Source of the DNA: Methylotenera oryzisoli
Lineage (GTDB): Bacteria; Pseudomonadota; Gammaproteobacteria; Burkholderiales; Methylophilaceae
Direction of reading: 5' to 3'
NCBI RefSeq assembly: GCF_004661485.1
Contig: NZ_PQVH01000012.1
Location: 1 to 64,000, forward strand
DNA length: 64,000 nt
The notes beneath the pieces were generated by a model that saw only the letters and a program-made list of their open reading frames with translations, did no database searches and was not told the DNA's origin. This document shows, one piece after another, positions 3,390 to 49,204 of this stretch (positions are counted from its first letter, which is position 1; every line of letters begins with the position of its first letter). The position numbers and the translations under genes are program-made.

Positions 3390-3499
3390 TTTAGATAATC
3401 TTAAATTATTGAATGGTATTGTTATTTTAGCAAAAATTGAGCCAGCTTTATGACCGTTCTTTGAAAGTTACGCTGTGCATAGCAGTTTAGAACAGCAAT

Positions 3500-3535
3500 A
3501 AAAAAACCGCCGAGCTTACGCAGGGCGGTTTTCTA
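3500..3535 (-). terminator. intrinsic terminator downstream of htpG
   Basis: AAAACCGCC (3503-3511) pairs with GGCGGTTTT (3524-3532) around a 12-base loop. Read on the minus strand the stem runs into seven T residues, a classical Rho-independent terminator 20 bases after the htpG stop. It separates htpG from glgP. Confidence 0.85.
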
Positions 3536-3550
3536 TTTAACAACAATAAG

Positions 3551-5452
3551 TTAGCTAATTAAGCTATTCATGCGCTTAACAAAACTAGCTGGGTCTTCCA
3601 AAGTACCGCCTTCTGCCAACAGTGCCTGATCAAACAGCACATGCGTTAAATCGGCAAACACTGTCTCTGCAGACTCAGCTTCCAGACGTTTTACCAATTT
3701 GTGACTAGGGTTAATTTCTAAAATTGGCTTACTTTCTGGCGCATTTTGACCAGCCGCTTTCAAAATACGTGCTAAGTTGCCAGACAAATCTTGCGCATCG
3801 CTCACCAAGCATGCAGGAGAGTCTGTTAGGCGATGGGTCACGCGCACGTCTTTTACCTGGCTACCCAATGTTTGCTTGATTTTCTCAACCAAGGTTTTTG
3901 ATTCTTCTTCGATTTTCTTCTGAATCTCTTTCTCAGTTTCAGATTCAAGCTTACCTAAGTCCAAATCGCCCTTAGCGATAGATTGTAGTTTTTTACCTTC
4001 AAACTCTGTCAGGCTACCGAGCAACCACTCATCCACGCGGTCGCTCATCAACAACACTTCAATACCTTTTTTACGGAAAATCTCCAAGTGCGGGCTGTGT
4101 TGCGCGGCTGCAAAGCTGTCGGCAGTAATGTAATAAATCACATCCTGCTCAGCTTGCATGCGTGCAATATAGTCTTTAAATGACACATCTTGCACATCAG
4201 TATCAGCTTTAGTTGACGCAAAACGCAATAAGCCAGCAATCTTCTCTTTATTCGCAAAGTCCTCGCCTGGGCCTTCTTTAAGTACACGGCCAAACTCTTG
4301 ATAGAACTTAGCGTAATCTTCAGGCTTGTTTTCAGCCATGTCTTCTAATAAACCCAGCACTTTCTTCACAGAACCAGCTTTAATTGCATCGACATCACGG
4401 CTTGATTGTAAAATTTCGCGCGATACATTCAACGGTAAATCAGAAGTATCAATCACGCCACGTACAAAACGCAGATATTGAGGCATCAACTTCTCAGCGT
4501 CTTCCATAATAAACACGCGTTTAACGTATAGTTTAATGCCATGACGACGGTCTCGATCATACAAGTCAAACGGGGCTTTACTAGGCACGTACAATAAAGA
4601 AATATACTCTTGCTTACCCTCTACACGGCTATGCGTGTAGGCGAGCGGATTTTCAAAATCATGTGACACATGTTTATAAAACTCTTGGTACTCTTCTTCC
4701 GTAATGTCGTTTTTACTACGTGCCCATAATGCAGATGCCCTGTTTACGGTTTCATCTTCATCGGTTGCCACCTCAGCACCATCTTTCCATTCAGATTTCT
4801 TCATCACGATTGGCAACGTGATATGGTCTGAATATTTGCGGATGATGGTTTTAAGTTTCCAGTCACTTAAGAACTCATCTTCACCTTCACGTAAATGCAG
4901 CGTAATTTCCGTGCCACGGCTAGCTTTATCTGCGGCTTCAATCGTAAAGTCACCCTCACCTGCTGACTCCCAGCGCACAGCTTCAGTTGCACCGGCACGG
5001 CGTGTAGTCAGGGTTACTTTGTCTGCAATGATAAATGCTGAGTAAAAGCCCACACCGAACTGACCGATTAAATTGGCATCTTTAGCCTGATCACCAGTTA
5101 AGGCGTTAAAAAACTCTTTAGTACCAGATTTAGCAATAGTACCGATGTTTGCAATCACCTCATCGCGGCTCATGCCGATGCCATTATCGGCAATGGTGAG
5201 GGTACGTGCTTCTTTATCAAAAGCAATGCGAATTTTTAACTCGCTGTCATTTTCATAAAGTGCGCCGTTTGCTAACGCTTCAAAACGTAATTTATCTGCC
5301 GCATCAGATGCATTTGAAATCAGCTCACGCAACACAATTTCTTTGTTGCTGTATAAAGAGTGAATCATCAACTGCAAGAGTTGTTTCACCTCAGCCTGAA
5401 AGGCCATTGACTCTTTTGGATGAATTTCTTGTTGTGCTGTCGCAGTGGACAT
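3551..5452 (-). CDS. htpG: molecular chaperone HtpG (Hsp90)
   Basis: ATP-dependent Hsp90-family chaperone, 633 residues, cytosolic. The N-terminal GHKL ATPase motifs are all present: [25 protein letters not shown] and [11 protein letters not shown]. They are followed by the middle domain (IEEEY...[20 protein letters not shown]) and the C-terminal dimerisation domain. The start ATG at 5452 has AGGAG about ten bases upstream. A sigma-32-type promoter lies at 5493-5520, so heat induction is expected. Divergent from ppx, closed by a strong terminator. Confidence 0.98.
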
Positions 5453-35068: not shown

Positions 35069-37786
35069 TTAATGCTTAGCGTGTATGCGCACCAACTGTT
35101 TTAACTCTGGCACACATGAACCACACTGTGTACCGCATTTGAGCTTGTTCTGCAATGTCAGCAAATCTGCACCCAATTGAATATTGTCGATAATTTCGTT
35201 CTCTGCAACATCTAGGCAGTTACATACGATTTTACCACGGCTACGCTGACCAGCCGGTGGCGCACTCAATGGTGCCAATGCCCAGCGACGTAACTCAGGG
35301 CTAAACTCTCCAGTCCCCATCACATCTTTAAGCCAAGCTGTGGCTAGCGTTTCGCCCACTAACCTGACCCCAGTCACTTCCGCTTTATTCTCCAGATTAG
35401 TTTCCACTAAGATACGCTTACTAATACCGCGTTTAGCATCCAGATAGTTAAGTAATGGTGCGTCACCTGTCATGCCCAACAGCGCATCTATATCTTGAAT
35501 CACTTGTTCATCAGGGGCTTCTGTGTGTGCAGCCCTTAGGATAAGCATGCCACAATGGGTTTCGGTCTCGCGGCCAAACAGCCCGCAGCTGGCATATTCA
35601 AAATGCGACAAGAAGCTTCTTATTTGCTGCATCACATCCAAGCTATGGATAGTGCGCATTACCGTCATACGCCAAGGCAGCTCAAGTTTCTCAAGCTTAA
35701 TCGCAGTGTGCTTAAGTTCCGGCTGCTTAGAAGTTTTGTCATAGTTTGGCGGCATTAATGCATTCACACCTAAACCGTGCATAGACTGACTACCCCAATG
35801 CATCGGGATAAAGGTCTGAGATGGTTTCACCTCGTCTGACAGTTGAGCCGGCAAGACTAAACTACCGCGTTTATTGCTGACTCTGACAATATCTCCGTTT
35901 TTAATAGAGCGTCGCATCATGTCGTCAGCACTCATCTGAATCACTGGCTCTTCCGCATGGTTAAAGAGCTGGGCAACATTACCAGTGCGGCTCATGCCAT
36001 GCCATTGGTCACGCAGACGCCCTGTGAGCAAATGTAATGGGTAGCGCGCATCTGTTTTATCGGCAGTGCCTTTATATACTGCATTTACAAACTGCGCTTT
36101 ACCATCGGGCTTTTGAAACACGCCATCGGCATACAGGCGTGCTTTACCTGTAACATCACCCTCTTTAAATGGCCATTGCTGCGGACCTTGCTCGTTGAGC
36201 AATGCATAACTCAAGCCGGTAATATCCAGATCACGCCCGCGTGTGGTTTCGCGGTGCTCATTAAAGATTTGCTCAGTGGTAGTATAAGGAAATAGTGCAC
36301 TGTTTTTTGCGAGTCTTCGCTCCAGACGCTGCGCAAAATCCACCACGATTTCCCAATCATGGCGCGCTTCTGCTGGGATGGCAACCGCTGGATTCACTCG
36401 TGTGATACGGCGTTCAGAGTTTGTGACCGAACCCTCTTTTTCACCCCAGGTGCTTGCTGGTAGCAGTACATCGGCATATTGACCAGTTTCAGTATTATTG
36501 AATGCATCTTGCACCACCACGAACTCAGCAGTATCTAATGCTTCCAGTACGCTATTCAGATCCGGCATGGAGTGCGCAGGGTTAGTACAAGCAATCCAGA
36601 TAGCTTTAATACTGCCCTCTTTGACTGCATCAAACATTTCAATGGCAGACTTACCGGGTGCTTCTGGCACACTTTCCACCCCCCACAATTTAGCTACTTC
36701 AGCGCGATGCTCTGCATTGGCTAAATCACGGTGGCCTGATAGCAGCGTAGCCATACCGCCCACCTCACGTCCGCCCATGGCATTAGGCTGACCAGTTAAG
36801 GAAAACGGTCCAGCACCAGGCTTACCAATTTGTCCTGTAGCCAAATGTAAGTTGATAAGCGCTGCATTCTTCTCGGTGCCGTGGATAGACTGGTTTAAGC
36901 CCATGCAATACATAGAAAGGCTTGGGCCTTTACCAAACCACTTGGCCGCAGTGATGATATCTGCTTCTTTAATACCGCAAATATCCGCCACCATTTTAGG
37001 TGTGTATTCGCGTACGGTTTCTTTTAGCTCGGCAAAACCATTGGTATAAGCCTCGATATAAGCATGATCCAGCATGCCTTCCCACAACATGACATGCAAC
37101 ATGCCATTAAATAGCGCAACATCAGTACCCGGTAAAATAGCCAAATGTAAATCGGCAGCCTTAGCTGTGTCAGTTTGGCGTGGATCAACCACCACTATTT
37201 TTAAATTAGGATTTTTTTCTTTCGCCGCTTCAATACGGCGATAAATAATCGGATGCGCAAATGCAGTATTTGAGCCTGCAATCAGTAAGCATTCCGTATG
37301 ATCAATATCCTCATAGCAGGCTGGTGGCGCATCTGCACCTAAAGTCACTTTATAACCAGCGACAGCGGATGACATGCATAAGCGCGAATTAGTATCTACG
37401 TTATTAGTACCAATCAAGCCCTTAGCCAGTTTGTTAAATACGTAATAATCTTCAGTGAGTAATTGCCCGGAAAGATAAAAAGCAACGCTATCAGGACCAT
37501 GTGTTTCTATTGTTCTCGCAAACTTCTCAACCGCTAGGTCGAGCGACTCATCCCATGTCGCACGCTTGCGTGGTAAATCGCGATTGGTGCGCAGCTCAGG
37601 GTAAAGCACGCGATTATCCAGCTTGGCTGAAAGGTGCAGCGTCGAACCTTTGGTACACAAACGCCCAAAGTTTGCCGGATGCTGCGGATCACCTTTAACA
37701 TCGATAATTTTGTCGTTTTCAGAATGAATAATCACCCCGCAGCCAACGCCGCAGTAACAACAAGTACTTTTAGTTTGCTTAATCAA
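35069..37786 (-). CDS. nasA: assimilatory nitrate reductase catalytic subunit
   Basis: Cytosolic molybdopterin enzyme reducing nitrate to nitrite for assimilation, 905 residues. The N-terminal [4Fe-4S] motif is CCYCGVGCGV followed by LCTKGS. The molybdopterin domains contain NTNSRLCMSSAV, with the molybdenum-ligand cysteine, and the dinucleotide-binding DQWHGMSRTG. The C terminus adds a BFD-like [2Fe-2S] domain with CNCLDVAENEI and CGTQCGSCVPEL, expected to take electrons directly. Five bases after nirD; last gene of the nirB operon, ended by the terminator at 34987-35020. Confidence 0.97.
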   Translation of the reverse strand: MIKQTKSTCCYCGVGCGVIIHSENDKIIDVKGDPQHPANFGRLCTKGSTLHLSAKLDNRVLYPELRTNRDLPRKRATWDESLDLAVEKFARTIETHGPDSVAFYLSGQLLTEDYYVFNKLAKGLIGTNNVDTNSRLCMSSAVAGYKVTLGADAPPACYEDIDHTECLLIAGSNTAFAHPIIYRRIEAAKEKNPNLKIVVVDPRQTDTAKAADLHLAILPGTDVALFNGMLHVMLWEGMLDHAYIEAYTNGFAELKETVREYTPKMVADICGIKEADIITAAKWFGKGPSLSMYCMGLNQSIHGTEKNAALINLHLATGQIGKPGAGPFSLTGQPNAMGGREVGGMATLLSGHRDLANAEHRAEVAKLWGVESVPEAPGKSAIEMFDAVKEGSIKAIWIACTNPAHSMPDLNSVLEALDTAEFVVVQDAFNNTETGQYADVLLPASTWGEKEGSVTNSERRITRVNPAVAIPAEARHDWEIVVDFAQRLERRLAKNSALFPYTTTEQIFNEHRETTRGRDLDITGLSYALLNEQGPQQWPFKEGDVTGKARLYADGVFQKPDGKAQFVNAVYKGTADKTDARYPLHLLTGRLRDQWHGMSRTGNVAQLFNHAEEPVIQMSADDMMRRSIKNGDIVRVSNKRGSLVLPAQLSDEVKPSQTFIPMHWGSQSMHGLGVNALMPPNYDKTSKQPELKHTAIKLEKLELPWRMTVMRTIHSLDVMQQIRSFLSHFEYASCGLFGRETETHCGMLILRAAHTEAPDEQVIQDIDALLGMTGDAPLLNYLDAKRGISKRILVETNLENKAEVTGVRLVGETLATAWLKDVMGTGEFSPELRRWALAPLSAPPAGQRSRGKIVCNCLDVAENEIIDNIQLGADLLTLQNKLKCGTQCGSCVPELKQLVRIHAKH

Positions 37787-37791
37787 ATCAA

Positions 37792-38106
37792 TTACTCTTT
37801 TAATTCTAAATAAACTACGCCATCTTCAATCTTAGTATTAAAACATGCAGTCTCGCCTACATCTGGTTCATCCGCTTTACCATCCACCAGGCTGATTTTC
37901 CAGCTATGTAATGGGCAGGCAATTCTGTCACCGTACACAATACCTTCTGACAATGGGCCACCTTTGTGTGGGCAGCTATTGTTCACAGCGTAGATACGGT
38001 CATCTTCTAAACGAAACACGCCGATATCAACCTCTTTGCTACGCACAACACGTGCGCCTAATTTAGGGATTTCTTCAAGAGGTGCAACTCTTACCCAATT
38101 ACTCAT
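37792..38106 (-). CDS. nirD: nitrite reductase small subunit (Rieske type)
   Basis: 104-residue Rieske-like subunit of NADH-dependent assimilatory nitrite reductase. The cluster-binding motifs CPHKGGPL and CPLHSWKI both retain Cys and His, so it may hold a [2Fe-2S] centre; many NirD proteins lack these residues. It is separated from nirB by the transporter and kinase genes and lies directly before nasA. Confidence 0.95.
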   Translation of the reverse strand: MSNWVRVAPLEEIPKLGARVVRSKEVDIGVFRLEDDRIYAVNNSCPHKGGPLSEGIVYGDRIACPLHSWKISLVDGKADEPDVGETACFNTKIEDGVVYLELKE

Positions 38107-38134: not shown

Positions 38135-39829
38135 TCATGAAACAGCTAATAAATAAATCAATAAAAAATTGAGGATTAGCGAAAATATCGCTATCCATTG
38201 CCATTTAACCAGCCTAGCCCGTGCAATCAATGGTGTACGGGTTGGCGGCAATATTGGCTTTAACTCACCATGCTCCAATGCCAGCAACATTTCTTCAGCA
38301 GTTTCAAAGCGCTGTTTAGGGTCTGTTGCAATTGCTTTTAAAACAATGTTCTCTAACCAGTACGGAATATCTGGACGGTATCTGGTTGGGGCCGTTGGGC
38401 TGCCAAATTTTGGATTCTGAAAAGGCTCTATTTCACCATGCGGATACTTACGCGTCAGTAAATGATACAACGTAACGCCTGCCGCATAAATATCACTCTG
38501 CGGCGTTGCCACTTCACCTGCAAATAATTCTGGCGCCATATAACTAGGTGTGCCCGGGTTTTGTACTACATCCGACTTAGTGGTCTGCATGCTTAAAGCA
38601 ACCCCTAAATCTAAAATACGCAGCCGCTGGTCACTACCTTGATGCACATTAGCAGGTTTAATGTCTCGGTGCACAATATTTAAACGATGCAACGCGCCAA
38701 TACCACGCATCATATCCACACCTACTTTACCGATACCGGCCACCGTAAAATGATGCCCGCTATCTAAACGCTGTTGCAACGTTGAGCCTTCATGCCAGCT
38801 CATTACGTAGTAAAGCTTGCTACGCTTTTCTACAGAAACCGGGAACACTTGCGGTACATATTGGGAAACAACACGCTTAGCCAGCCACTCTTCATTCAAC
38901 AGGCCATTACAGCTCTCGGTATCTGTCGCCAGTGCTGGCTGCAAGGTTTTCAGCACAAAAAACTGTTTGGTCGCCGTGTGCCTGACTTTATACAGCAGAC
39001 TGGCACGCGACTCGTACATGACCTCAAGCACTTCAAAATCATCAATCAGGTCACCCACATTGAGCTTATCTGGCACAGTGAGATGTCTACCACCGGCTAA
39101 TAATTCAAGCAAAGTGTCTTCACCCAAGGCGGTCACGCGTAATGCTACTGCGGTAGAGTTATCTTGACTGCCTTTTTCAATGGCCGCTTTCGTTAGATGA
39201 TCGCACATCATCTGCGGGTTGTTGTATAGGCCTAACACTTTATGGATGGTTTGCTCACCAACGCTATCCCACACACCATCGCTCATTAAAGCAAACACAT
39301 CGCCTTCTTGCAGAGCACCTTCAGAAAAATCAACCTCAAGATGCCGATCCAGCCCAACTGCGCGCTTTAATACATGGCGCATATCAGGCCTATCCCACAC
39401 ATGATCGGTAGTCAGTAGCTTTAATGCGCCATTACGTAATAGGTAGATACGTGTATCACCAACATGCGCAGCGTAGTAGCGCTGACCGCGCAACACGAGC
39501 AAAGACAAGGTGGTCGCCATGCCAGCCATAGCACTGTTGGCATTAGCCTGTGCAATTAGCCAGCGGTTAGCGGCGCCCAACACTTTATCTAAAGAAGTAA
39601 AAGGCTCCCAGGTATCCGGCGTGGCGTAGTAATCTGTAGTGACTGTACGTACCGTCATCTCAGAGGCTTCACCACCACCAGCATTGCCACTTACGCCATC
39701 GGCGATGGCGAAAAGTGCACCCTTCACACTTAATTGCTCACCTGATGGCGTTACCACTCCAACATAATCTTCATTACGTGTTCTAGGCCCAGTTAGGCTA
39801 GACTGACCAACAGTGAATTTAAGTGACAT
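38135..39829 (-). CDS. PP2C phosphatase-Ser/Thr kinase fusion with C-terminal membrane anchor
   Basis: One 564-residue polypeptide with opposite activities. Residues about 1-240 are a PP2C-type phosphatase (AIADGVSGNAGGGEAS, HVGDTRIYLL, LMSDGVWDSV). Residues about 265-525 are a Hanks-type kinase: catalytic loop IVHRDIKPANVH, metal motif DLG rather than DFG (RILDLGVAL), activation segment GTPSYMAPE. It ends in one membrane segment (WIAIFSLILNFLLIYLLAV). Genes of this type recur in nitrate-assimilation operons, and this one lies between the nitrate transporter and nirD. Regulation of nitrate uptake or reduction by phosphorylation is inferred; substrates are unknown. Confidence 0.9.
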   Translation of the reverse strand: MSLKFTVGQSSLTGPRTRNEDYVGVVTPSGEQLSVKGALFAIADGVSGNAGGGEASEMTVRTVTTDYYATPDTWEPFTSLDKVLGAANRWLIAQANANSAMAGMATTLSLLVLRGQRYYAAHVGDTRIYLLRNGALKLLTTDHVWDRPDMRHVLKRAVGLDRHLEVDFSEGALQEGDVFALMSDGVWDSVGEQTIHKVLGLYNNPQMMCDHLTKAAIEKGSQDNSTAVALRVTALGEDTLLELLAGGRHLTVPDKLNVGDLIDDFEVLEVMYESRASLLYKVRHTATKQFFVLKTLQPALATDTESCNGLLNEEWLAKRVVSQYVPQVFPVSVEKRSKLYYVMSWHEGSTLQQRLDSGHHFTVAGIGKVGVDMMRGIGALHRLNIVHRDIKPANVHQGSDQRLRILDLGVALSMQTTKSDVVQNPGTPSYMAPELFAGEVATPQSDIYAAGVTLYHLLTRKYPHGEIEPFQNPKFGSPTAPTRYRPDIPYWLENIVLKAIATDPKQRFETAEEMLLALEHGELKPILPPTRTPLIARARLVKWQWIAIFSLILNFLLIYLLAVS

Positions 39830-39901: not shown

Positions 39902-41107
39902 TTATACCTTAGCAGTTGTTGCTGCGCCCCAAGTTGTACGCCAGCGTGTTTTAACACCGGTTAAGCCCAATACCGCTAAAGCAGCCAGCCCTGCAAAAAT
40001 CAATATACCTACTTGATAATTACCAGTTGCTTGCTTAATGAAGCCTAAACTTGAAGCGAGGTAGAAACCACCTACGCCACCTGCCATACCGACCAAGCCA
40101 GTCATCACACCAATTTCTTTACGGAAACGTTGTGGCACTAACTGGAATACCGCACCATTACCCATCCCCAAGATTGCCATGGTTGGAATAATGACCATTA
40201 GCGCTGATTGATATGTTGGCTGACCGAAACTCATGATTACCAACAAAATTGCAGCTAGTATATACATGGTTAACAAAGTGCGGATACCACCAACGCGGTC
40301 AGCTAACCAGCCACCTAATGGACGCACAAGTGAACCTGCAAACACGCATGCAGCCGTACAGTAACCAGCAACTACTGGGCCTAATGCATACAAATCATTA
40401 AAGTAAATAGTTAATGATGAAGCTAAACCTACAAAACCACCAAAAGTAACGCTATAGAAGAACATGAACCACCAAGCGTCTTTGTCTTTAAGGATCAACA
40501 GGTATTGGCTTAATGATTTTGCAGGTGGTGCATCCGGTGCATCTTTAGCAAAAACGATATAAACAAACATAGCGATGCCTAATGGAATCAACACTAGGCC
40601 AAATACATTATTCCAGCCATAAGCAACTGCCAAGCTAGGCGCAAACAATGCCGCAAATACAGTACCTGAGTTACCAGCACCGGCAATCCCTAAGGCTGTG
40701 CCTTGATGCTCTGGCGGATACCAGCGGCTAGCCAAAGGCAAAGCCACTGCAAACGCTGCACCAGCAAAGCCTAAACCCAAGCCCAGCATTAACGCATGCT
40801 GAAATGTTTGTAAGCCGTGCAACCATGCAGCAAGCAAGCTTGCAATCACAATCACTTGGCCAATTAAACCTGCCATTTTAGGTTTAATTTGATCAACCAA
40901 AACACCCATCACAATACGCAACAGGGCGCCTGCCAGCACAGGTGTTGCCACCATCAGGCCTTTTTCAGCCGGAGTAAGCTGCAGGTCGGTCGCAATTTGC
41001 ACTGCTAACGGGCCTAACATGACCCATACCATAAAGCTTAAATCAAAATATAAAAAGGATGATAGCAAGGTCGGGGTATGACCTGATTTCCAAAAACTAG
41101 ACTTCAT
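39902..41107 (-). CDS. nasF: nitrate/nitrite MFS transporter (NarK/NasF family)
   Basis: Twelve-helix major-facilitator protein of the nitrate-nitrite porter family, 401 residues, inner membrane. The nitrate signature glycines appear in ALGIAGAGNSGTVFAA and VGMAGGVGGFYLAS. Expected to bring nitrate into the cytosol. A second, ABC-type nitrate importer is encoded 5 kb away, so uptake looks duplicated. 30 bases after nirB. Confidence 0.94.
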   Translation of the reverse strand: MKSSFWKSGHTPTLLSSFLYFDLSFMVWVMLGPLAVQIATDLQLTPAEKGLMVATPVLAGALLRIVMGVLVDQIKPKMAGLIGQVIVIASLLAAWLHGLQTFQHALMLGLGLGFAGAAFAVALPLASRWYPPEHQGTALGIAGAGNSGTVFAALFAPSLAVAYGWNNVFGLVLIPLGIAMFVYIVFAKDAPDAPPAKSLSQYLLILKDKDAWWFMFFYSVTFGGFVGLASSLTIYFNDLYALGPVVAGYCTAACVFAGSLVRPLGGWLADRVGGIRTLLTMYILAAILLVIMSFGQPTYQSALMVIIPTMAILGMGNGAVFQLVPQRFRKEIGVMTGLVGMAGGVGGFYLASSLGFIKQATGNYQVGILIFAGLAALAVLGLTGVKTRWRTTWGAATTAKV

Positions 41108-41137: not shown

Positions 41138-43567
41138 TTACACAGTAATTGTTTCATATTCTTTATGTTGTTCACGGTTGTTCACGCGTTCAGCCCAAGG
41201 GTCAGATGCACCTTGCAGCGCATAAATCAAGCGTTCGTACGCAGCTTTACGACCTTCTGCGTCTTCTAGCACACGTTGTTTCACGTATTCTAGACCGACA
41301 CGTTCAATCCAATGCACGGTACGATCCAAATAGCGCGCTTCTTCACGGTAAATCTGGATAAATGCGCCAGAGTACTCCATGACTTCTTCTGAAGTTTTCA
41401 CTTTACACAAGAAGTGCGCAGCTTCGGTTTTAATACCGCCATTACCGCCTACGTAAATTTCCCAACCTGAATCTACACCGATAATACCAACGTCTTTAAT
41501 GCCAGATTCAGCACAGTTACGTGGGCATCCTGAAACCGCAAACTTCACTTTATGTGGTGCCCACATATGGTCGAATGCTTTTTCGATATCAATGCCTAAT
41601 TGGGTAGAGTTTTGTGTACCAAAACGACAGAACTCAGAACCAACACAGGTTTTAACCGTACGGATACTCTTACCGTAGGCATAACCTGATGGCATGTCTA
41701 AGTCTTTCCACATATCAACCAAGTCGTCTTTTTTCACGCCTAGCAAGTCAATACGTTGACCGCCGGTTACTTTCACCATAGGCACTGCGTACTTATCTGC
41801 AACATCCGCAATTTTTCTAAGTTGGTCTGGTGTGGTTACACCGCCGTACATACGTGGAATCACTGAATATGTACCATCTTTTTGGATGTTTGCATGTACA
41901 CGCTCGTTGATGAAACGTGATTGTGGATCATCCTTCGCCTCGTGTGGCCATGTTGAAAGCAAGTAATAGTTAAGCGCTGGACGGCAAGTTGCACAGCCGT
42001 TTGGTGTAGACCAAGCCATGCCTTGCATTGCATCCGGGATGCTCAAGTATTTATGGGTACGGATTTCCGCACGCACTTCTTCGTGGTTCTTCGTGGTACA
42101 TCCACACACTGCCTTGCTGGTTGATGGAGGGGCATACCCGCCACCTAAAGTAGAAGCAAGAATCTGCTCAACCAAGCCTACGCAAGAACCACAGCTAGAA
42201 CCAGCTTTGGTTTGTTTTTTCACATCATCGATAGTGAATAAACCTTTGTCCTGAATTGCTTTAACGATGGTACCTTTACATACCCCGTTACAGCCGCACA
42301 CTTCCATCTCGTTGGTCATGGCTGCTGCTTTGTCCTGGCCTTGATGACCAGTATTGCCAAGGCTATCTTGACCAAACATCAAATGGTCACGAATCTCATG
42401 GATTGCCTTGCCATCTCTAAGCATTTGAAAATACCACGAACCATCCGTGGTATCCCCATAAAGCACGCTACCAACGATTTTGTCATTTTTGATGATGAGC
42501 TTTTTGTAAACCCCACCAACTGCGTCGTGCAAAACAATCTCTTCCGTATCACTACCACCCATAAAGTCACCCGCACTGAATAAATCGATGCCTGTTACTT
42601 TAAGTTTAGTAGATGTTACTGATCCTTTATATTGGCCTATGCCAAAGTTAGCCAAGTGCGTTGCGCATACTTTAGCCATTTCAAATAATGGCGCGACCAG
42701 ACCGTATGAAATACCGCGGTGCGCTACACACTCACCCACTGAATATACGCGTGGGTCATAAGTTTGCATGGTGTCATTAACCACAATACCTTTATTACAG
42801 TAAATGCCAGCTGATTCCGCTAATGCATAGTTAGGACGGATACCAACCGCCCAAACTACTAAGTCTGCCGGGATTTCTTGACCATCGCTGAATCTCACTG
42901 CCTTCACGCGGCCTTTGTCATCTCCAACTAACTGCTCTGTATTTTTATTCAACAAGAAATTCAAACCTTTAGCTTCAAGGTTTTTTTGTAGCATACCGCC
43001 CGCAGTTTTATCTAACTGACGCTCTAACAACCACTGATTCTTGTGTACAACTGTGACTTCCATGCCTTGAATTTTCAAGCCATTTGCAGCCTCTAAACCT
43101 AATAAACCACCACCGATCACCACTGCATGCTTGTAGACTTTAGCAGCCTCAATCATGTCATTGGTATCTTTAATATCGCGGTAGCCCAGCACGCCCTCAA
43201 ACTCATTACCTGGGATTGGCGGCATAAACGGCTTAGAGCCTGTTGCAATTAATAGTCGATCATAGCTAGCGCTCACGCCATCTTCCGTATAAACCACACG
43301 GTTTTTACGATCAATCTTGTTCACCCGCGCACTCGTGTGCAGGGTGATATTGTTCTCTGCATACCATTCTCTGGTATTTAAAATGATGTCATCAATCGTT
43401 TGCTCGTTTGCAAGCACCGGAGACAACATAATGCGGTTGTAATTAGGGTAAGGTTCATCGCCAAACACGGTGATATCGTAAAGATCGGGCGCTATTTTCA
43501 GCAACTCTTCCACTGTACGCATCCCGGCCATACCGTTACCAATTACTACTAATTTCATCTTTTGCAT
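41138..43567 (-). CDS. nirB: assimilatory nitrite reductase large subunit
   Basis: Cytosolic NADH-dependent siroheme enzyme reducing nitrite to ammonium, 809 residues. Order of parts: FAD/NADH oxidoreductase (VVIGNGMAGMRTVEEL, ATGSKPFMPP, VVIGGGLLGLEAANGL), BFD-like cysteine clusters (CGCNGVCKGTI...SSCGSCVGLV, then CGC...CATC), then the siroheme/[4Fe-4S] domain with TCVGSEFCRFGTQ and VSGCPRNCAESG. First gene of nirB-nasF-PP2C/kinase-nirD-nasA. A sigma-54 promoter is predicted 45-60 bases upstream. Confidence 0.98.
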   Translation of the reverse strand: MQKMKLVVIGNGMAGMRTVEELLKIAPDLYDITVFGDEPYPNYNRIMLSPVLANEQTIDDIILNTREWYAENNITLHTSARVNKIDRKNRVVYTEDGVSASYDRLLIATGSKPFMPPIPGNEFEGVLGYRDIKDTNDMIEAAKVYKHAVVIGGGLLGLEAANGLKIQGMEVTVVHKNQWLLERQLDKTAGGMLQKNLEAKGLNFLLNKNTEQLVGDDKGRVKAVRFSDGQEIPADLVVWAVGIRPNYALAESAGIYCNKGIVVNDTMQTYDPRVYSVGECVAHRGISYGLVAPLFEMAKVCATHLANFGIGQYKGSVTSTKLKVTGIDLFSAGDFMGGSDTEEIVLHDAVGGVYKKLIIKNDKIVGSVLYGDTTDGSWYFQMLRDGKAIHEIRDHLMFGQDSLGNTGHQGQDKAAAMTNEMEVCGCNGVCKGTIVKAIQDKGLFTIDDVKKQTKAGSSCGSCVGLVEQILASTLGGGYAPPSTSKAVCGCTTKNHEEVRAEIRTHKYLSIPDAMQGMAWSTPNGCATCRPALNYYLLSTWPHEAKDDPQSRFINERVHANIQKDGTYSVIPRMYGGVTTPDQLRKIADVADKYAVPMVKVTGGQRIDLLGVKKDDLVDMWKDLDMPSGYAYGKSIRTVKTCVGSEFCRFGTQNSTQLGIDIEKAFDHMWAPHKVKFAVSGCPRNCAESGIKDVGIIGVDSGWEIYVGGNGGIKTEAAHFLCKVKTSEEVMEYSGAFIQIYREEARYLDRTVHWIERVGLEYVKQRVLEDAEGRKAAYERLIYALQGASDPWAERVNNREQHKEYETITV

Positions 43568-43804: not shown

Positions 43805-45250
43805 TTAAAATGTGTACATTGCAGTAACCCAAACGATTTCTTTATCACCTTTACGGGCAGCGCCTTTTAGGTTGTTACCGTATACATCACTTTCATTAAA
43901 GTTAGCATACTCAACCTTACCTAACAGATTGTTATTTAATGGATATGTTGCACTCACATCAAACTCTGTACCGTATTGGTCGCCAAATTTACCATTCATA
44001 GATTGATATTTTTCATCAGACTTGAACAAGTGATATTCAGCATAAAGTTTTACTTTATCAATGGCACCAGCAACGGTCACAAACGTATCTTCAATACCTT
44101 GACGTGGAGTCACTAAGAACTGATCAGCCCAACCTTGGAACAAATGGTTGGTGCCAAGTGGTGTTTGGAATGCGTATTTACCATCATTGCTAGAAAGCTT
44201 TTCATGATCCAAGCGCACTGACCATGCACCATATGCTGCACCACCGCCTAGTTTGAAATAATACGCATCAATTAATGAGCTACCACCACGGTAATCTGTT
44301 TGTTTTGCATACTCTGCTGTGTATAGCACTTTCCAGTCTGGGTTAATCGGACGCACACCATCTAAACGCAAACCGAAAGTTTTGCTGCTTGCGTCAGTTT
44401 TAGATGGTTGAAAGTTAGATCCACTCGCAGGGATATCCGCACTACCGCCCAAGCCGTTGCCACCTTGCGCTGCTGTACCTACTGAATTTGGATTACCGCC
44501 GTTTTGTGCCAAGTTTTCAACATCTACCAAGTAGCCATAACCTACTACTGATTCAGATGGTGAAATGCGATATTTCGCATTCAACACTTCAATATTGCCA
44601 CGACGGTCTTTAGTGGTAATTTGACGCACGTTATCAAAGTGCGCGGCAAACAACTCTACATCTGGAATGCTTTTGTTTAATACAGAAGCACCATCAAACA
44701 CTTGCATGTTTTGTCTAAAGCCAATGTCACCGATAAAACGCACGTTATCCAAGTTCAATTGTTGGCGACCTAAACGCACTTTAGTGTTTTTAATGCCAGT
44801 CCAATCCACAAAAAGCTGATTAATATCGGTAAAGCCAGGGTCTACAATGTTAGGGTACTGTGCCTTATCTGCACTTGCGCTGGCTGTGCCATTGTTATGC
44901 TCTGGCGTATTGTATCTGCGGTCGTTAAAGTTATCGTTAAACTCATGTACGTCTGTAATTTGCGCACCGATACTGAAGTTTTTATATGGTGCAGTTTGCC
45001 AGCCAATCAAGCTGCGTAATGTAAAAGCTTCGCCGGTGTCCAGCTTCTTACCATTGGCCTTAAATGCCTCTTGATTGACATTCTCGTAACGTAAACGAAA
45101 GTTAGTCATTTGCTTACCTTCTTTGATTGAATCCAAGAAGGTATATTCTGCAACCTCATCTTCTGCGAAAGCAGCTTGCCCCATACCAGCCAAAGCTAGC
45201 GCGGTGCAAGCCATGACCATATTTTTCTTAAATATTGCTTTAGTTTTCAT
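43805..45250 (-). CDS. outer-membrane porin, alginate-export family
   Basis: Predicted beta-barrel of 481 residues, assigned to the alginate-export porin family. A signal peptide covers residues 1-29 (ALAGMGQAAFA-EDE). The strand-rich body ends KEIVWVTAMYTF, with the C-terminal phenylalanine typical of outer-membrane barrels. I chose the ATG at 45250, which has GGGAT upstream and starts the signal peptide; the frame is open farther upstream. It is the last gene after nrtA-nrtB-nrtD, so passage of nitrate across the outer membrane is more likely than alginate export, though not proven. Confidence 0.85.
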   Translation of the reverse strand: MKTKAIFKKNMVMACTALALAGMGQAAFAEDEVAEYTFLDSIKEGKQMTNFRLRYENVNQEAFKANGKKLDTGEAFTLRSLIGWQTAPYKNFSIGAQITDVHEFNDNFNDRRYNTPEHNNGTASASADKAQYPNIVDPGFTDINQLFVDWTGIKNTKVRLGRQQLNLDNVRFIGDIGFRQNMQVFDGASVLNKSIPDVELFAAHFDNVRQITTKDRRGNIEVLNAKYRISPSESVVGYGYLVDVENLAQNGGNPNSVGTAAQGGNGLGGSADIPASGSNFQPSKTDASSKTFGLRLDGVRPINPDWKVLYTAEYAKQTDYRGGSSLIDAYYFKLGGGAAYGAWSVRLDHEKLSSNDGKYAFQTPLGTNHLFQGWADQFLVTPRQGIEDTFVTVAGAIDKVKLYAEYHLFKSDEKYQSMNGKFGDQYGTEFDVSATYPLNNNLLGKVEYANFNESDVYGNNLKGAARKGDKEIVWVTAMYTF

Positions 45251-45305: not shown

Positions 45306-46115
45306 TTATGCTGATTTCTTAGCATGACGCTCATACAAAAATCGTAATACTTCACTGCGCAGGTGGTTATATTCTTTATCTTCTGCTAATGCCAAACGCG
45401 CTCTTGGACGTGGTAAATTAACCTCCAAAATTTCACCAATAGTAGCACTTGGACCGTTAGTCATCATCACCACGCGGTCTGACAACAGCACAGCTTCGTC
45501 TACATCATGCGTTACCATCACTGCAGTGCAGCCTGATTTCGCCATGATCTTCATCAGTTCATCTTGCAAGTTAGCACGGGTCAATGCATCCAGTGCGCCG
45601 AATGGCTCATCCAATAACAGCACCTTTGGTTCCATGGCTAAGGCACGTGCAATACCAACACGCTGCTTCATACCACCAGAAATTTCATTAGGGCGCTTGT
45701 CACTAGAATGTGTCAAACCAACCAGCTCAATCGCGGCATGAGTGCGCGCCTCAAGCTGTGCTTTAGTTTCGTTTTCAAATACACGCTCTACTGCAAGGTA
45801 CACGTTCTCAAAACAAGTGAGCCATGGCAATAATGAATGATTTTGAAACACAACCGCACGCTCAGGACCTGGCCCTGCAATTTCACGGCCAGCGCAAAAG
45901 ATCAAGCCATCTGTTGGGTGAAGCAAACCTGCTATTAAATTTAAAACCGTAGACTTACCACAGCCTGAGTGCCCAATGATTGAAATGAATTCGCCTTCTT
46001 TAATATTTAGATTAATACCCTTAAGTGCATTGAATGTGCCTTTTTTAGTGTTAAAAGTCATATTCACATGCTCTAACTGTACGTATTTATCGGTGTTTGC
46101 TTTTTCCATGATCAT
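45306..46115 (-). CDS. nrtD: nitrate ABC transporter ATPase
   Basis: ATP-binding subunit, 269 residues, of the NrtD/TauB/SsuB group. Walker A is GHSGCGKST, the signature EISGGMKQRVGIARAL, Walker B LLLDEPFGALD, H-loop MVTHDVDEA. Encoded 24 bases after the permease, forming the nitrate uptake set nrtA-nrtB-nrtD. Confidence 0.94.
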   Translation of the reverse strand: MIMEKANTDKYVQLEHVNMTFNTKKGTFNALKGINLNIKEGEFISIIGHSGCGKSTVLNLIAGLLHPTDGLIFCAGREIAGPGPERAVVFQNHSLLPWLTCFENVYLAVERVFENETKAQLEARTHAAIELVGLTHSSDKRPNEISGGMKQRVGIARALAMEPKVLLLDEPFGALDALTRANLQDELMKIMAKSGCTAVMVTHDVDEAVLLSDRVVMMTNGPSATIGEILEVNLPRPRARLALAEDKEYNHLRSEVLRFLYERHAKKSA

Positions 46116-46139: not shown

Positions 46140-46982
46140 TTACTCGTAACTAAATCTTTTGGCGATTTGTGTGAGTGCATACTCAAGTAACAAACCAACA
46201 ATACCTACGATAAAAATTGCGATGATGATATGTTCCACATTTAAATTGTTCCACTCATCCCACACCCAGAAACCGATACCCACACCGCCCGTCAACATTT
46301 CAGCTGCCACAATCACTAACCATGCCACGCCGATAGATAAGCGCACACCTGTCATCATGTAAGGCAACACAAACGGGAACAGTATTTTGGTTACGATTTT
46401 CCACTCACTTAAGTTCAATACTTTGGCAACGTTCATATAGTCTTGTGGCACTTTATTCACGCCAACCGCCGTATTGATAATCATCGGCCATACTGCAGAA
46501 ATAAAGATTACCCATATCGCCGCAGGGTTTGCTGCTTTAAACACCAGCAAGCCAATCGGCAACCATGCCAGCGGCGAGACTGGACGTAGCAAACTGATGA
46601 CTGGTGCGGTCATTCTTGCAACAAACTCAAAACGACCGATGATAAAACCCAGTGGTATGCCAATGATTGCTGCCAGGCCAAACCCCAAACCAACGCGTTG
46701 CAATGACGCCAGGATATTCCAACCCACCCCTTTATCATTGATGCCATGGTCATAAAACGGATCACTAAACAACTCAACGGCAGAAGCCCAAGTTTTAATT
46801 GGTCCAGGCAACTCTGGTGTGTGTTCAGCAATCATGGCCCAAATAACAGCCAACAAGAACAAACCAAAGATAGGTGGCAATATCCATCTAAAAAAGCGAT
46901 ATGCCTGAACATTTAAACTACTTGAACTGCCGAAAGTGAAACATTTAGCAATAGGCATTAATTTATTTACAGTATTTGTCAT
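46140..46982 (-). CDS. nrtB: nitrate ABC transporter permease
   Basis: Inner-membrane permease of 280 residues with about six membrane helices. The EAA-type loop that contacts the ATPase is around VAKVLNLSEWKIVTKILFPFVLPYMMTG. FIIGRFEFVARMTAPVISLLRPVSPLAWLPI is typical of the NrtB/SsuC branch. Confidence 0.94.
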   Translation of the reverse strand: MTNTVNKLMPIAKCFTFGSSSSLNVQAYRFFRWILPPIFGLFLLAVIWAMIAEHTPELPGPIKTWASAVELFSDPFYDHGINDKGVGWNILASLQRVGLGFGLAAIIGIPLGFIIGRFEFVARMTAPVISLLRPVSPLAWLPIGLLVFKAANPAAIWVIFISAVWPMIINTAVGVNKVPQDYMNVAKVLNLSEWKIVTKILFPFVLPYMMTGVRLSIGVAWLVIVAAEMLTGGVGIGFWVWDEWNNLNVEHIIIAIFIVGIVGLLLEYALTQIAKRFSYE

Positions 46983-47027: not shown

Positions 47028-48332
47028 TTACGCTTTAATCTTAAATGATGCAGCATAAGCAGCTGGGTTAGAGCCATCCCACACTACGCCATCCATTAAC
47101 TTACTGCTGCGCATTGTGCTTTTAGGCACGCTGATACCCAATTGCGATGCAGCTTCAGTATAAAGTTTGGTTTGGTTAACTTTGGTAGCAACCGCTAAGT
47201 AGTCAGGGTCTGACTTGAGCAAGCCCCAACGTTTATGCTGTGTTAAGAACCACATACCATCAGACAAGAATGGATAGTTCACTTTGCCATCATCAAAGAA
47301 CTTCATGTAGTTAGGATCTTTCCATACTTTACCGTTGCCATTGTCGTAGTCGCCTACAAAGCGGCCAGCAATCACTTGCTCTGGCGCATTCACATATGCC
47401 TTACCTGAAATCAACTTAGCAACTTTTGCACGATTCTCTGCAGCATCGATATAACGACAAGCTTCAAGAATTGCCATCATGATGGCGCGTGCTGTATTTG
47501 GGTTCTTCTCTACAAACTCTGCGGTAGCGCCCAAAACTTTTTCAGGGTGATCTACCCAAATATCTTGTGTAGTAGCAACAGTAAATCCAACTTTGTCGAA
47601 AATTGCCCTAGCGTTCCATGGCTCACCCACACAGTAACCATCCATGTTACCAATACGCATATTGGCAACCATTTGTGGTGGAGGCACTACGATATTTTTA
47701 ACGTCTTTTACCGGATGAATGCCATTAGCAGCTAGCCAGTAGTTAAGCCACATTGCATGGGTACCAGTCGGGAAAGTTTGTGCGAAGGTATAGTCACGGT
47801 TTTCGTTATCAAGTAAACGTTTTAAGCTCTTACCATCTTTCACACCTTTGTCTTTAAGCTGGTTAGAAAGCGTAATACCTTGACCGTTATGGTTTAAGCC
47901 CATCAGCACTGTCATATCTTTTTGTTGGCCGCCGATACCAAGCTGAACACCGTACACCAAGCCATATAGAATGTGCGCTGCATGCAACTCACCATTAGCT
48001 ACTTTATCGCGCACAGCAGCCCAAGACGCTTCTTTTGAAGGGGTAATTTTGATGCCGTATTTCTTATCAAAACCCATTTCCGCAGCTACGATAATCGGTG
48101 CGCAATCGGTAAGAGGAATAAAACCAATTTTCACCTCTTTGATTTCCGGTGCGTCAGAACCTGCTGCGTATGCCTGTGTACGGATGCCGTTTGGTACTAA
48201 ACCCATCATTGCTGCTGCCCCTAATGCGCCAACTGCACTCATTTTAAAAAAGTCACGGCGTGCTGGATCAACCACCACATTTGGTTGCTGACCTAATTTT
48301 CCCGCCTTATTACTTGTATTGTCATTGCCCAT
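47028..48332 (-). CDS. nrtA: nitrate ABC transporter substrate-binding protein
   Basis: CmpA/NrtA-type binding protein, 434 residues from the ATG at 48332, which has AGGAG nearby. A twin-arginine signal is visible: R25-R26 in ARRDFFKMSAVGALGAAAMMG, with export expected after TQAYA. Binding-domain segments include KIGFIPLTDCAPIIVAAEMGF and GNMDGYCVGEPWNARA. The frame is open upstream, but that part would cross the leader terminator and lacks a signal. Expression is predicted to depend on NasT-mediated antitermination in the leader. Confidence 0.95.
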   Translation of the reverse strand: MGNDNTSNKAGKLGQQPNVVVDPARRDFFKMSAVGALGAAAMMGLVPNGIRTQAYAAGSDAPEIKEVKIGFIPLTDCAPIIVAAEMGFDKKYGIKITPSKEASWAAVRDKVANGELHAAHILYGLVYGVQLGIGGQQKDMTVLMGLNHNGQGITLSNQLKDKGVKDGKSLKRLLDNENRDYTFAQTFPTGTHAMWLNYWLAANGIHPVKDVKNIVVPPPQMVANMRIGNMDGYCVGEPWNARAIFDKVGFTVATTQDIWVDHPEKVLGATAEFVEKNPNTARAIMMAILEACRYIDAAENRAKVAKLISGKAYVNAPEQVIAGRFVGDYDNGNGKVWKDPNYMKFFDDGKVNYPFLSDGMWFLTQHKRWGLLKSDPDYLAVATKVNQTKLYTEAASQLGISVPKSTMRSSKLMDGVVWDGSNPAAYAASFKIKA

Positions 48333-48374
48333 CTTAGCTCTCCTAAAATAATCCAAACAATCTAAAAAATTTAT

Positions 48375-48442
48375 AAAAAAAAGGCGTCTGATAAGTTGAA
48401 CCAACTCATCAATAAAGAGTTGATTGCTTATCAAGACGCCTT
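48375..48442 (-). terminator. leader terminator between nasT and nrtA
   Basis: On the minus strand GGCGTCTTGATAAG (48440-48427) pairs with CTTATCAGACGCC (48395-48383), 13 pairs with one bulged T, and is followed by eight T residues (48382-48375). An inner stem CAACTC/GAGTTG closes the apex. It lies about 40 bases before the nrtA ATG, so it works as an attenuator as well as the end of a nasT-only transcript. Confidence 0.9.
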
Positions 48443-48449
48443 TGTCTTG
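48432..48449 (-). promoter_or_regulatory. ANTAR-target hairpin P2 overlapping the terminator
   Basis: Minus strand CAAGAC-AAAGGC-GTCTTG: a six-pair stem with a hexaloop having A at position 1 and G at position 4, the pattern known for ANTAR-protein RNA targets. Its loop and 3' arm are part of the 5' arm of the terminator, so the two structures exclude each other. Confidence 0.8.
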
Positions 48450-48462
48450 TATTACTTGATCT

Positions 48463-48478
48463 GAGCCTCCATTGGCTC
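48463..48478 (-). promoter_or_regulatory. ANTAR-target hairpin P1
   Basis: Minus strand GAGCC-AATGGA-GGCTC: a five-pair stem with a hexaloop, again A1 and G4, located 13 bases before P2. Paired hexaloop hairpins are the substrate of NasR/NasT-type antiterminators. Confidence 0.8.
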
Positions 48479-48492
48479 GTATTTACTGCTAG

Positions 48493-48539
48493 AGCACTTG
48501 CGTAGACTGCCCATCATTGGGCGTTTATACGCAAGTACT
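48493..48539 (-). promoter_or_regulatory. extended leader hairpin with a third hexaloop
   Basis: Minus strand AGTACTTGCGTA (48539-48528) pairs with TACGCAAGTGCT (48504-48493), 12 pairs with one G-U. Inside it, GCCC-AATGAT-GGGC (48522-48509) is another hexaloop with A1 and G4. It lies just after the nasT stop. A third ANTAR-like loop is more than the usual two. Confidence 0.65.
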
Positions 48540-49187: not shown

Positions 49188-49204
49188 AGCAATAGCTGTG
49201 CCAA
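49188..49204 (-). promoter_or_regulatory. sigma-54 promoter of nasT
   Basis: Minus strand TGGCACAGCTATTGCT (49203-49188): GG at 49202-49201, ten bases, GC at 49190-49189, almost identical to TGGCACG-N4-TTGCW. Predicted start near 49178, about 25 bases before the nasT ATG. Confidence 0.8.

Follow-up and report, generated by a model that had tools for sequence, protein, structure and literature searches.

A putative three-hexaloop ANTAR attenuator between nasT and nrtA in Methylotenera oryzisoli and its relatives

How might an RNA leader with three ANTAR-type hexaloops, rather than the usual two and no more, control the nitrate assimilation genes behind it? The question is posed by the 245 bases (48577-48333, minus strand) that separate nasT from nrtA in Methylotenera oryzisoli, within the 64 kb stretch of DNA analysed here (hereafter, the window; Table 1). 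The leader is like the dual-hexaloop attenuators of EutV (E. faecalis eut) and NasR (Klebsiella nasF), as described in the literature (PMC3369931, PMC8934654, PMC7496416): P1 and P2 have six-base loops with A at position 1 and G at position 4 (A1/G4) over a C:G closing pair, the second of these hairpins overlaps and excludes an intrinsic terminator, and an ANTAR protein is encoded in the genome. It is unlike them, as described there, in having a third hexaloop (P0, the first to be transcribed, on a long stem) and in a regulator gene that, judged by its promoter, would be the first cistron of the same transcript.

Table 1. Features of the nasT-nrtA locus and leaders matched by the covariance model in the window genome. 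Genes from nrtB to the nitrate reductase carry the names that we take them to have.
Feature	Position	Strand	Basis or remark
Sigma54-type -24/-12 box TGGCACAGCTATTGCT	49188..49203	-	score 15/16; 34 nt between box and nasT start
nasT, receiver + ANTAR protein, 191 aa	48578..49153	-	Pfam Response_reg and ANTAR
P0, long-stem hairpin, third A1/G4 hexaloop AATGAT (48518-48513)	about 48493..48539	-	sequence, minimum free energy, kept in relatives
P1, hairpin GAGCC[AATGGA]GGCTC	48463..48478	-	sequence, minimum free energy, covariation
P2, putative antiterminator hairpin CAAGAC[AAAGGC]GTCTTG, excludes terminator	48432..48449	-	sequence, folding
Intrinsic terminator, 5' arm = P2 loop + 3' arm	48375..48443	-	ends in eight T (48382-48375)
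nrtA, nitrate-binding protein (NMT1_2)	47028..48332	-	first gene past the attenuator; start codon by sequence
nrtB-type permease	46140..46982	-	ORF; presumed from position and family
nrtD-type ATPase	45306..46115	-	ORF; presumed from position and family
Outer-membrane porin-like protein	43805..45250	-	ORF; presumed; behind nrtD in relatives
nirB-type nitrite reductase large subunit	41138..43567	-	ORF; presumed; in relatives' clusters
NarK/NasA-type nitrate transporter	39902..41107	-	ORF; presumed from family
PP2C-phosphatase/Ser-Thr-kinase fusion	38135..39829	-	ORF; presumed from family
nirD-type small subunit	37792..38106	-	ORF; presumed from family
Assimilatory nitrate reductase, molybdopterin type	35069..37786	-	ORF; presumed from family
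nrtA leader			101.6 bits
Leader before CheW-domain protein (cache-like part below its cut-off)			82.6 bits
Leader before PilJ-HPt-HATPase kinase, then CheY and CheX			73.0 bits
Leader before PAS-GGDEF-EAL protein (C8)			70.9 bits

The original prediction had proposed folding this leader, and its minimum free energy (MFE) structure reaches -79.2 kcal/mol, compared with -50.2 kcal/mol for shuffled sequences (z = -6.64; none of 200 shuffles as good). P2 alone yields -6.9 kcal/mol versus -32.7 kcal/mol for the stretch with the terminator, so that the terminator would win without help; to judge from the letters they share, P2 and this strong terminator are mutually exclusive. The three predicted A1/G4 hexaloops can be read directly, and two structural details had to be redrawn. 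The terminator does share the loop and 3' arm of P2 and runs into eight T, but in the MFE structure it has 10 + 6 pairs, a single bulged U and an apical hairpin of its own, where a plain 13-pair stem had been proposed. Likewise, the 12-pair lower stem of P0 is present, but internal loops lie above it and the MFE structure draws AATGAT as a tetraloop (ATGA) closed by an A-U pair; hence in the window genome the hexaloop and the tetraloop are close alternatives for P0. Such A-U closing is impossible in 31 of the 52 P0 loops of the family, where the sixth base is C or A. An Rfam scan of the 64 kb window returned no family at its gathering score. A mechanical open reading frame (47028-48434) begins inside the leader (overlap 48434-48333; the likely nrtA start is 48332), and an automatic gene call could thus hide the terminator.

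We sought NasT in 187 genomes of the same family (window genome included). Some match at 0.001 was present in 125 of them, many being merely other receiver or ANTAR proteins, and the leaders found behind full-length NasT number 65 (own locus included; G115 and G133 contribute two each). Among relatives that bear a name, this NasT is present in Methylotenera mobilis 13, M. versatilis 7 and many Methylotenera MAGs. The P2 core was recovered in 63/65 leaders and P1 in 59 of those 63; with two of the 59 regions too short, P0 was testable in 57 leaders (2/65 being without P2 core and 4/63 without P1). The MFE structure of the region upstream of P1 contains an A1/G4 hexaloop in 52 of the 57, compared with a mean of 3.2 (maximum 10) in 100 sets of dinucleotide-shuffled regions, and these 52 leaders sort into 35 forms that share less than 80% identity across 22 bases. 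Judged by these sequence comparisons, the third hexaloop is a real extra conserved hairpin, beyond chance, and the NasR/NasT attenuation layout with one additional hexaloop holds in the family as had been predicted. The regions without P0 by the MFE test are those of L039, L051, L053, L062 and L064. Three of the four leaders that precede a gene for a signal-less NrtA-like protein (L060, L061, L065) lack any upstream A1/G4 loop; the fourth (L064) has one.

A strict test of terminator-P2 overlap was passed by 43/65 family leaders (40 of the 43 with the P2 loop AAAGGC); among the 22 misses, L023 and L057 are without P2 core and the rest were read by eye only. The terminator pairs are kept in 41 of the 42 leaders of an alignment (A1), the segment of the remaining row stopping short. 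Relatives thus conserve both the loops and the overlap, a point on which the original prediction had staked itself. Because the 42 rows of A1 were chosen from the 52 leaders already having P0, the invariance of the P0 A1/G4 positions within it comes by selection, the unselected count being 52/57. Without a structure as input, RNAalifold recovered P0, P1 and the terminator, and 10 of the 17 pairs show double changes; the named P0+P1+P2 structure has 93.9% paired cells, versus 82.8% when shuffled and 24-48% when slid, and a covariation of 0.405 versus 0.205. Most A1 rows show the common form CC[AANGNN]GG for P0 and P1.

Farther afield, two A1/G4 loops lie upstream of P2 in six of nine leaders of a neighbouring family (f15), and likewise in one leader (L089) of another family; most other order-level leaders show at most one, and a P2 with terminator was not found in 10 of the 51 order-level leaders read (a few places counted twice). 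Some sister genera carry nasR (NIT-ANTAR) in place of nasT, and 16 of 17 of their leaders with this P2 have one upstream A1/G4 loop or none, a count in which the MFE may hide a loop because those leaders are longer. In one genome (G040, 76% complete and absent from the list of genomes with PF13379 matches at 1e-20; L144/L058) the order is nasT-leader-porin-nirB, with neither nrtA nor nasS in the stretch.

NasT is the sole ANTAR match in the window genome. Its receiver plus ANTAR architecture is that of the NasS-NasT systems; it is without the NIT domain that defines NasR (NIT-ANTAR) and that is present in the NasR of L143. Seven of the eight EutV RNA-contact residues compared are identical in the alignment (Arg142, Lys143, Lys149, Glu160, Tyr164, Arg168 and Met172), and Lys147 is replaced by Arg; the residue list comes from the literature, and the offset of two between the numberings was set by us. 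In the receiver domain, as read off the alignment, the Asp is kept and the conserved Lys is Gly, and phosphorylation by a kinase is disfavoured as the NasT switch for this reason. The original prediction was right that the regulator gene lies directly upstream on the same strand, but the layout itself is not new: in P. denitrificans a receiver-ANTAR NasT is likewise encoded upstream of the hairpin leader of nitrate assimilation genes, with a hairpin region of ~200 bp and nasA downstream of nasTS (PMC3795266, PMC5424462). The window genome is unlike that system, as described there, in that NasS was not found in it and in its extra leaders before chemotaxis-type and GGDEF-EAL genes.

Which promoter feeds the leader? 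The box before nasT is the only match of at least 15 on both strands of the window (all boxes being scored against what we take to be the sigma54 consensus), and rpoN is found in the genome. Across the family, a box scoring at least 14 occurs within 250 nt before nasT in 63/65 loci and within 250 nt after it in one (L024), whereas 65 of 2000 pieces of 250 nt drawn at random from these loci, real nasT boxes included, score as high. Simple scans of the minus strand of the nasT-nrtA gap in the window detected neither a sigma70-like site nor a sigma54 box, and a separate nrtA promoter there was rejected. NtrC-like palindromes (TGCACY-N5-RGTGCA, at most 3 mismatches) number 74 in the window, fewer than the 105 expected by chance, so that no NtrC site is claimed. 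At nasR loci the box follows the regulator gene in 18/19 cases and precedes it in 1/19; it precedes P2 in all 17 loci where P2 was found, and is also present in L143, where P2 was not. Since the box stands before nasT and after nasR, nasT would appear to lie on the very transcript under its control, unlike nasR. The predicted readthrough out of nasT's own transcript, by which (considering 63/65 loci with a box before and 1/65 after nasT) the nrt genes are probably reached, is supported by the location of the single strong box. In L143 itself (G079, 1614-3918) nasT is interrupted by an in-frame stop, and nasR, a kinase and nrtA come after it, which looks like a regulator swap in progress.

A covariance model built from the 42 leaders recognized four places in the window genome at 7.5e-9 or better, the next match having an E of 0.36. 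A P0 hexaloop precedes the CheW gene in the window genome and in G114, as well as the GGDEF-EAL gene of G157 (the MFE closing the loop by A-U in both G114 and G157); the PilJ leader has a 7-base P0 loop in the window genome and in G109, and the C8 GGDEF-EAL leader of the window genome has no P0. Sigma54 boxes stand at the PilJ (16/16 in the window genome and G109) and GGDEF-EAL (15) targets; the CheW gene has none. The PilJ kinase occurs in 8 of 52 same-genus genomes, window genome included, and in six of the eight its set lies inside the nrt operon, in the one-strand order nasT-leader-nrtA-nrtB-nrtD-porin-PilJ kinase-CheY-CheX (nirB comes next in 4/6; in G133 and G115 no nirB lies within 1.6 kb beyond CheX). 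The window genome is not among the six: there (L154:4249-7206) and in G109 the PilJ set lies outside the operon, with its own model match and box. The PilJ domains of the chemoreceptor McpN bind nitrate, and nitrate lowers the mcpN transcript (PMC6381276). By analogy, the PilJ protein of the window genome may bind nitrate, and the direction of control of its set would be opposite to that of mcpN.

Only G114 carries a true orthologue of the CheW gene (83%), and the leader is present there too; other matches to the gene are 34-36% identical and without a model match. Beyond these, a GGDEF-EAL gene in G157 and a formate/nitrite transporter gene in G043 are further targets. With a further match at 1e-6 or better in 3 of 26 relatives (looser filters), the spread of extra targets is patchy; weak leader copies may be missed, since only some first-look candidates were scored. 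Adjoining the CheW target (L153:7653-10808, minus strand) is what appears by eye to be a second PAS-GGDEF-EAL-like protein, its N-terminus resembling that of the C8 target. A cobalamin riboswitch (L192:72-295) lies ~4.6 kb from the CheW-gene leader of G114.

The closest Rfam entry that we compared is the narK RNA (RF03032), against which the window leader scores 20.5 bits (gathering score 43.2). In kind, they share a box of sigma54 type and two A1/G4 hexaloops, the first in a hairpin; the second reads CGAC[AAAGAC]GUCG in RF03032 and is absent from its structure line; the window leader is unlike RF03032 in its subthreshold score, in the box standing before nasT and in the presence of P0. Among 30 loci scanned, one gathering-level match was obtained (L134:4313-4250, minus strand), between divergent nasT and nrtA, and its sequence contains the box and the two loops, the second of them overlapped by a terminator. 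On the strength of the consensus and of L134, the narK RNA seems to combine a sigma54 promoter with an ANTAR attenuator of the dual-hexaloop type. A blast of the narK consensus in plasmids gave no match, and a narrow literature search on the narK RNA found nothing.

What, then, would NasT respond to? A PF13379 search of the window genome (rated 100% complete) did not find NasS, the cytoplasmic, signal-less NrtA-like protein that usually partners NasT and senses nitrate for it; it found only NrtA (364.8 bits), whose twin-arginine (Tat) signal was judged by eye, and one protein at 38.1 bits, whereas in other genomes five signal-less NasS-like proteins encoded behind nasT reach 223-325 bits. Signal-less NrtA-like proteins (by eye) lie right behind nasT in four family and five order-level loci. 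In the four family loci (L060, L061, L064, L065) the protein takes nrtA's place, is 65-68% identical to the window NrtA and likely is NasS; no nrtB or nrtD was seen in the stretch read. NCBIfam did not separate NasS from NrtA. A quick tree of 78 of 123 proteins (signals judged by eye, short ones removed; loci L001, L002, L042, L072, L074, L075 and L088 left out as repeats, broken or partial) requires three or more switches between the signal-less and the Tat-signal state and places 8 of 9 signal-less ones in the Tat-NrtA group, which, with its long branches and weak forks, makes it only a hint. As NasS was not found, nitrate control of the window NasT is an assumption drawn from relatives. Because Tat substrates are already folded when they are exported, the NasS-like NrtA, with its twin-arginine signal, could serve as the first candidate nitrate sensor for NasT, although this is a guess.

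We consider it quite likely that the leader attenuates transcription in a NasT-dependent manner and offers three ANTAR docking loops, with P2 locking away the terminator, on a sigma54 transcript that begins at nasT and is controlled together with related leaders. In this scheme, sigma54 RNA polymerase would transcribe nasT under nitrogen limitation, with or without nitrate, and would by default stop at 48375. Active NasT would bind the hexaloops as they emerge (P0, then P1, then P2), P2 would be held folded with the 5' arm of the terminator locked away, and the polymerase would read on into nrtA, nrtB, nrtD and the nitrate genes behind. The CheW-domain protein, the PilJ-HPt kinase/CheY/CheX set and the GGDEF-EAL protein would come under the same NasT control through their leaders. 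P0 most likely acts as a further docking site, which would raise the local occupancy of NasT before P2 appears; it is not universal (absent from five of 57 regions and from the C8 leader, and replaced by a 7-base loop in the PilJ leader). Published accounts differ on whether ANTAR proteins need one hexaloop or two, the 2012 model having a hairpin pair and the 2022 structure a single hairpin as the minimal site (PMC3369931, PMC8934654, PMC7496416); for NasR, binding to a single hairpin is about twelvefold weaker than to the pair (PMC7496416).

The same sources state that two loops suffice for NasR and EutV (PMC7496416, PMC8934654), and the loop of P0 lies 16-59 nt past the nasT stop in 47/52 leaders, both as expected if P1 and P2 were the whole working target and P0 a stable hairpin that does not bind NasT and serves either to keep ribosomes off the leader or to guard the nasT message against decay. 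A stability hairpin, however, needs no A1/G4 loop, and in the family leaders it is the loop of P0 that is kept while the stem varies; moreover, P0 also precedes targets with no nasT in front and thus cannot be a feature of the nasT 3' end alone. We rate a purely protective P0 as distinctly improbable. Far less probable still is that an ordinary nasT terminator stands here among chance hairpins, with an nrtA promoter in the gap: a terminator is indeed present behind nasT, but conservation, shuffles and covariation oppose chance hairpins (the grounds on which the plain terminator was rejected), the gap offers no sigma70-like site on the coding strand, and 64/65 loci are without a sigma54 box of at least 14 in the 250 nt after nasT.

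The absence of a NasS-like gene beside the Tat-signal NrtA, together with a receiver that has lost its conserved Lys, would also suit a NasT that is always active, in which case nitrate would play no part and the operon would answer to nitrogen limitation only, through sigma54. Under such a regime the family-wide terminator and docking loops would be idle, and the signal-less NrtA-like proteins of the four family and five order-level loci occupy precisely the position expected of a sensor; we regard a permanently active NasT as unlikely, and retain the attenuator that depends on active NasT as our reading.

Searches on ANTAR hexaloops, on chemotaxis or nitrate antitermination and on NasT with c-di-GMP named, in the available parts of the texts, no triple hexaloop or such targets, which is not proof of absence. 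What appears new, from sequence comparison, is a variant: the third loop, the arrangement, in almost every nasT locus of the family, of regulator gene and downstream leader on what appears to be a single sigma54 transcript, and the wider set of targets. A bolder version, to which we would give a minor though real chance, has a triple-hexaloop switch bound in order by one NasT dimer per loop, a NasT without NasS that is gated by the cytoplasm-folded Tat substrate NrtA, and a methylotroph regulon in which nitrate uptake is joined to c-di-GMP signalling and to chemotaxis that senses nitrate.

The function of the attenuator, its targets and their regulation are, throughout, predictions from sequence. 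Considering that three loops are kept in the family and that natural cases with two and one exist, the number of loops is directly testable, and the missing NasS poses a clear question of how nitrate is sensed. The PilJ set appears as a module that sits within the operon in some genomes, and elsewhere, with its own switch and promoter, in others. If the functions predicted from sequence hold, a single RNA switch would, by way of the extra targets, couple signalling genes to nitrate assimilation.
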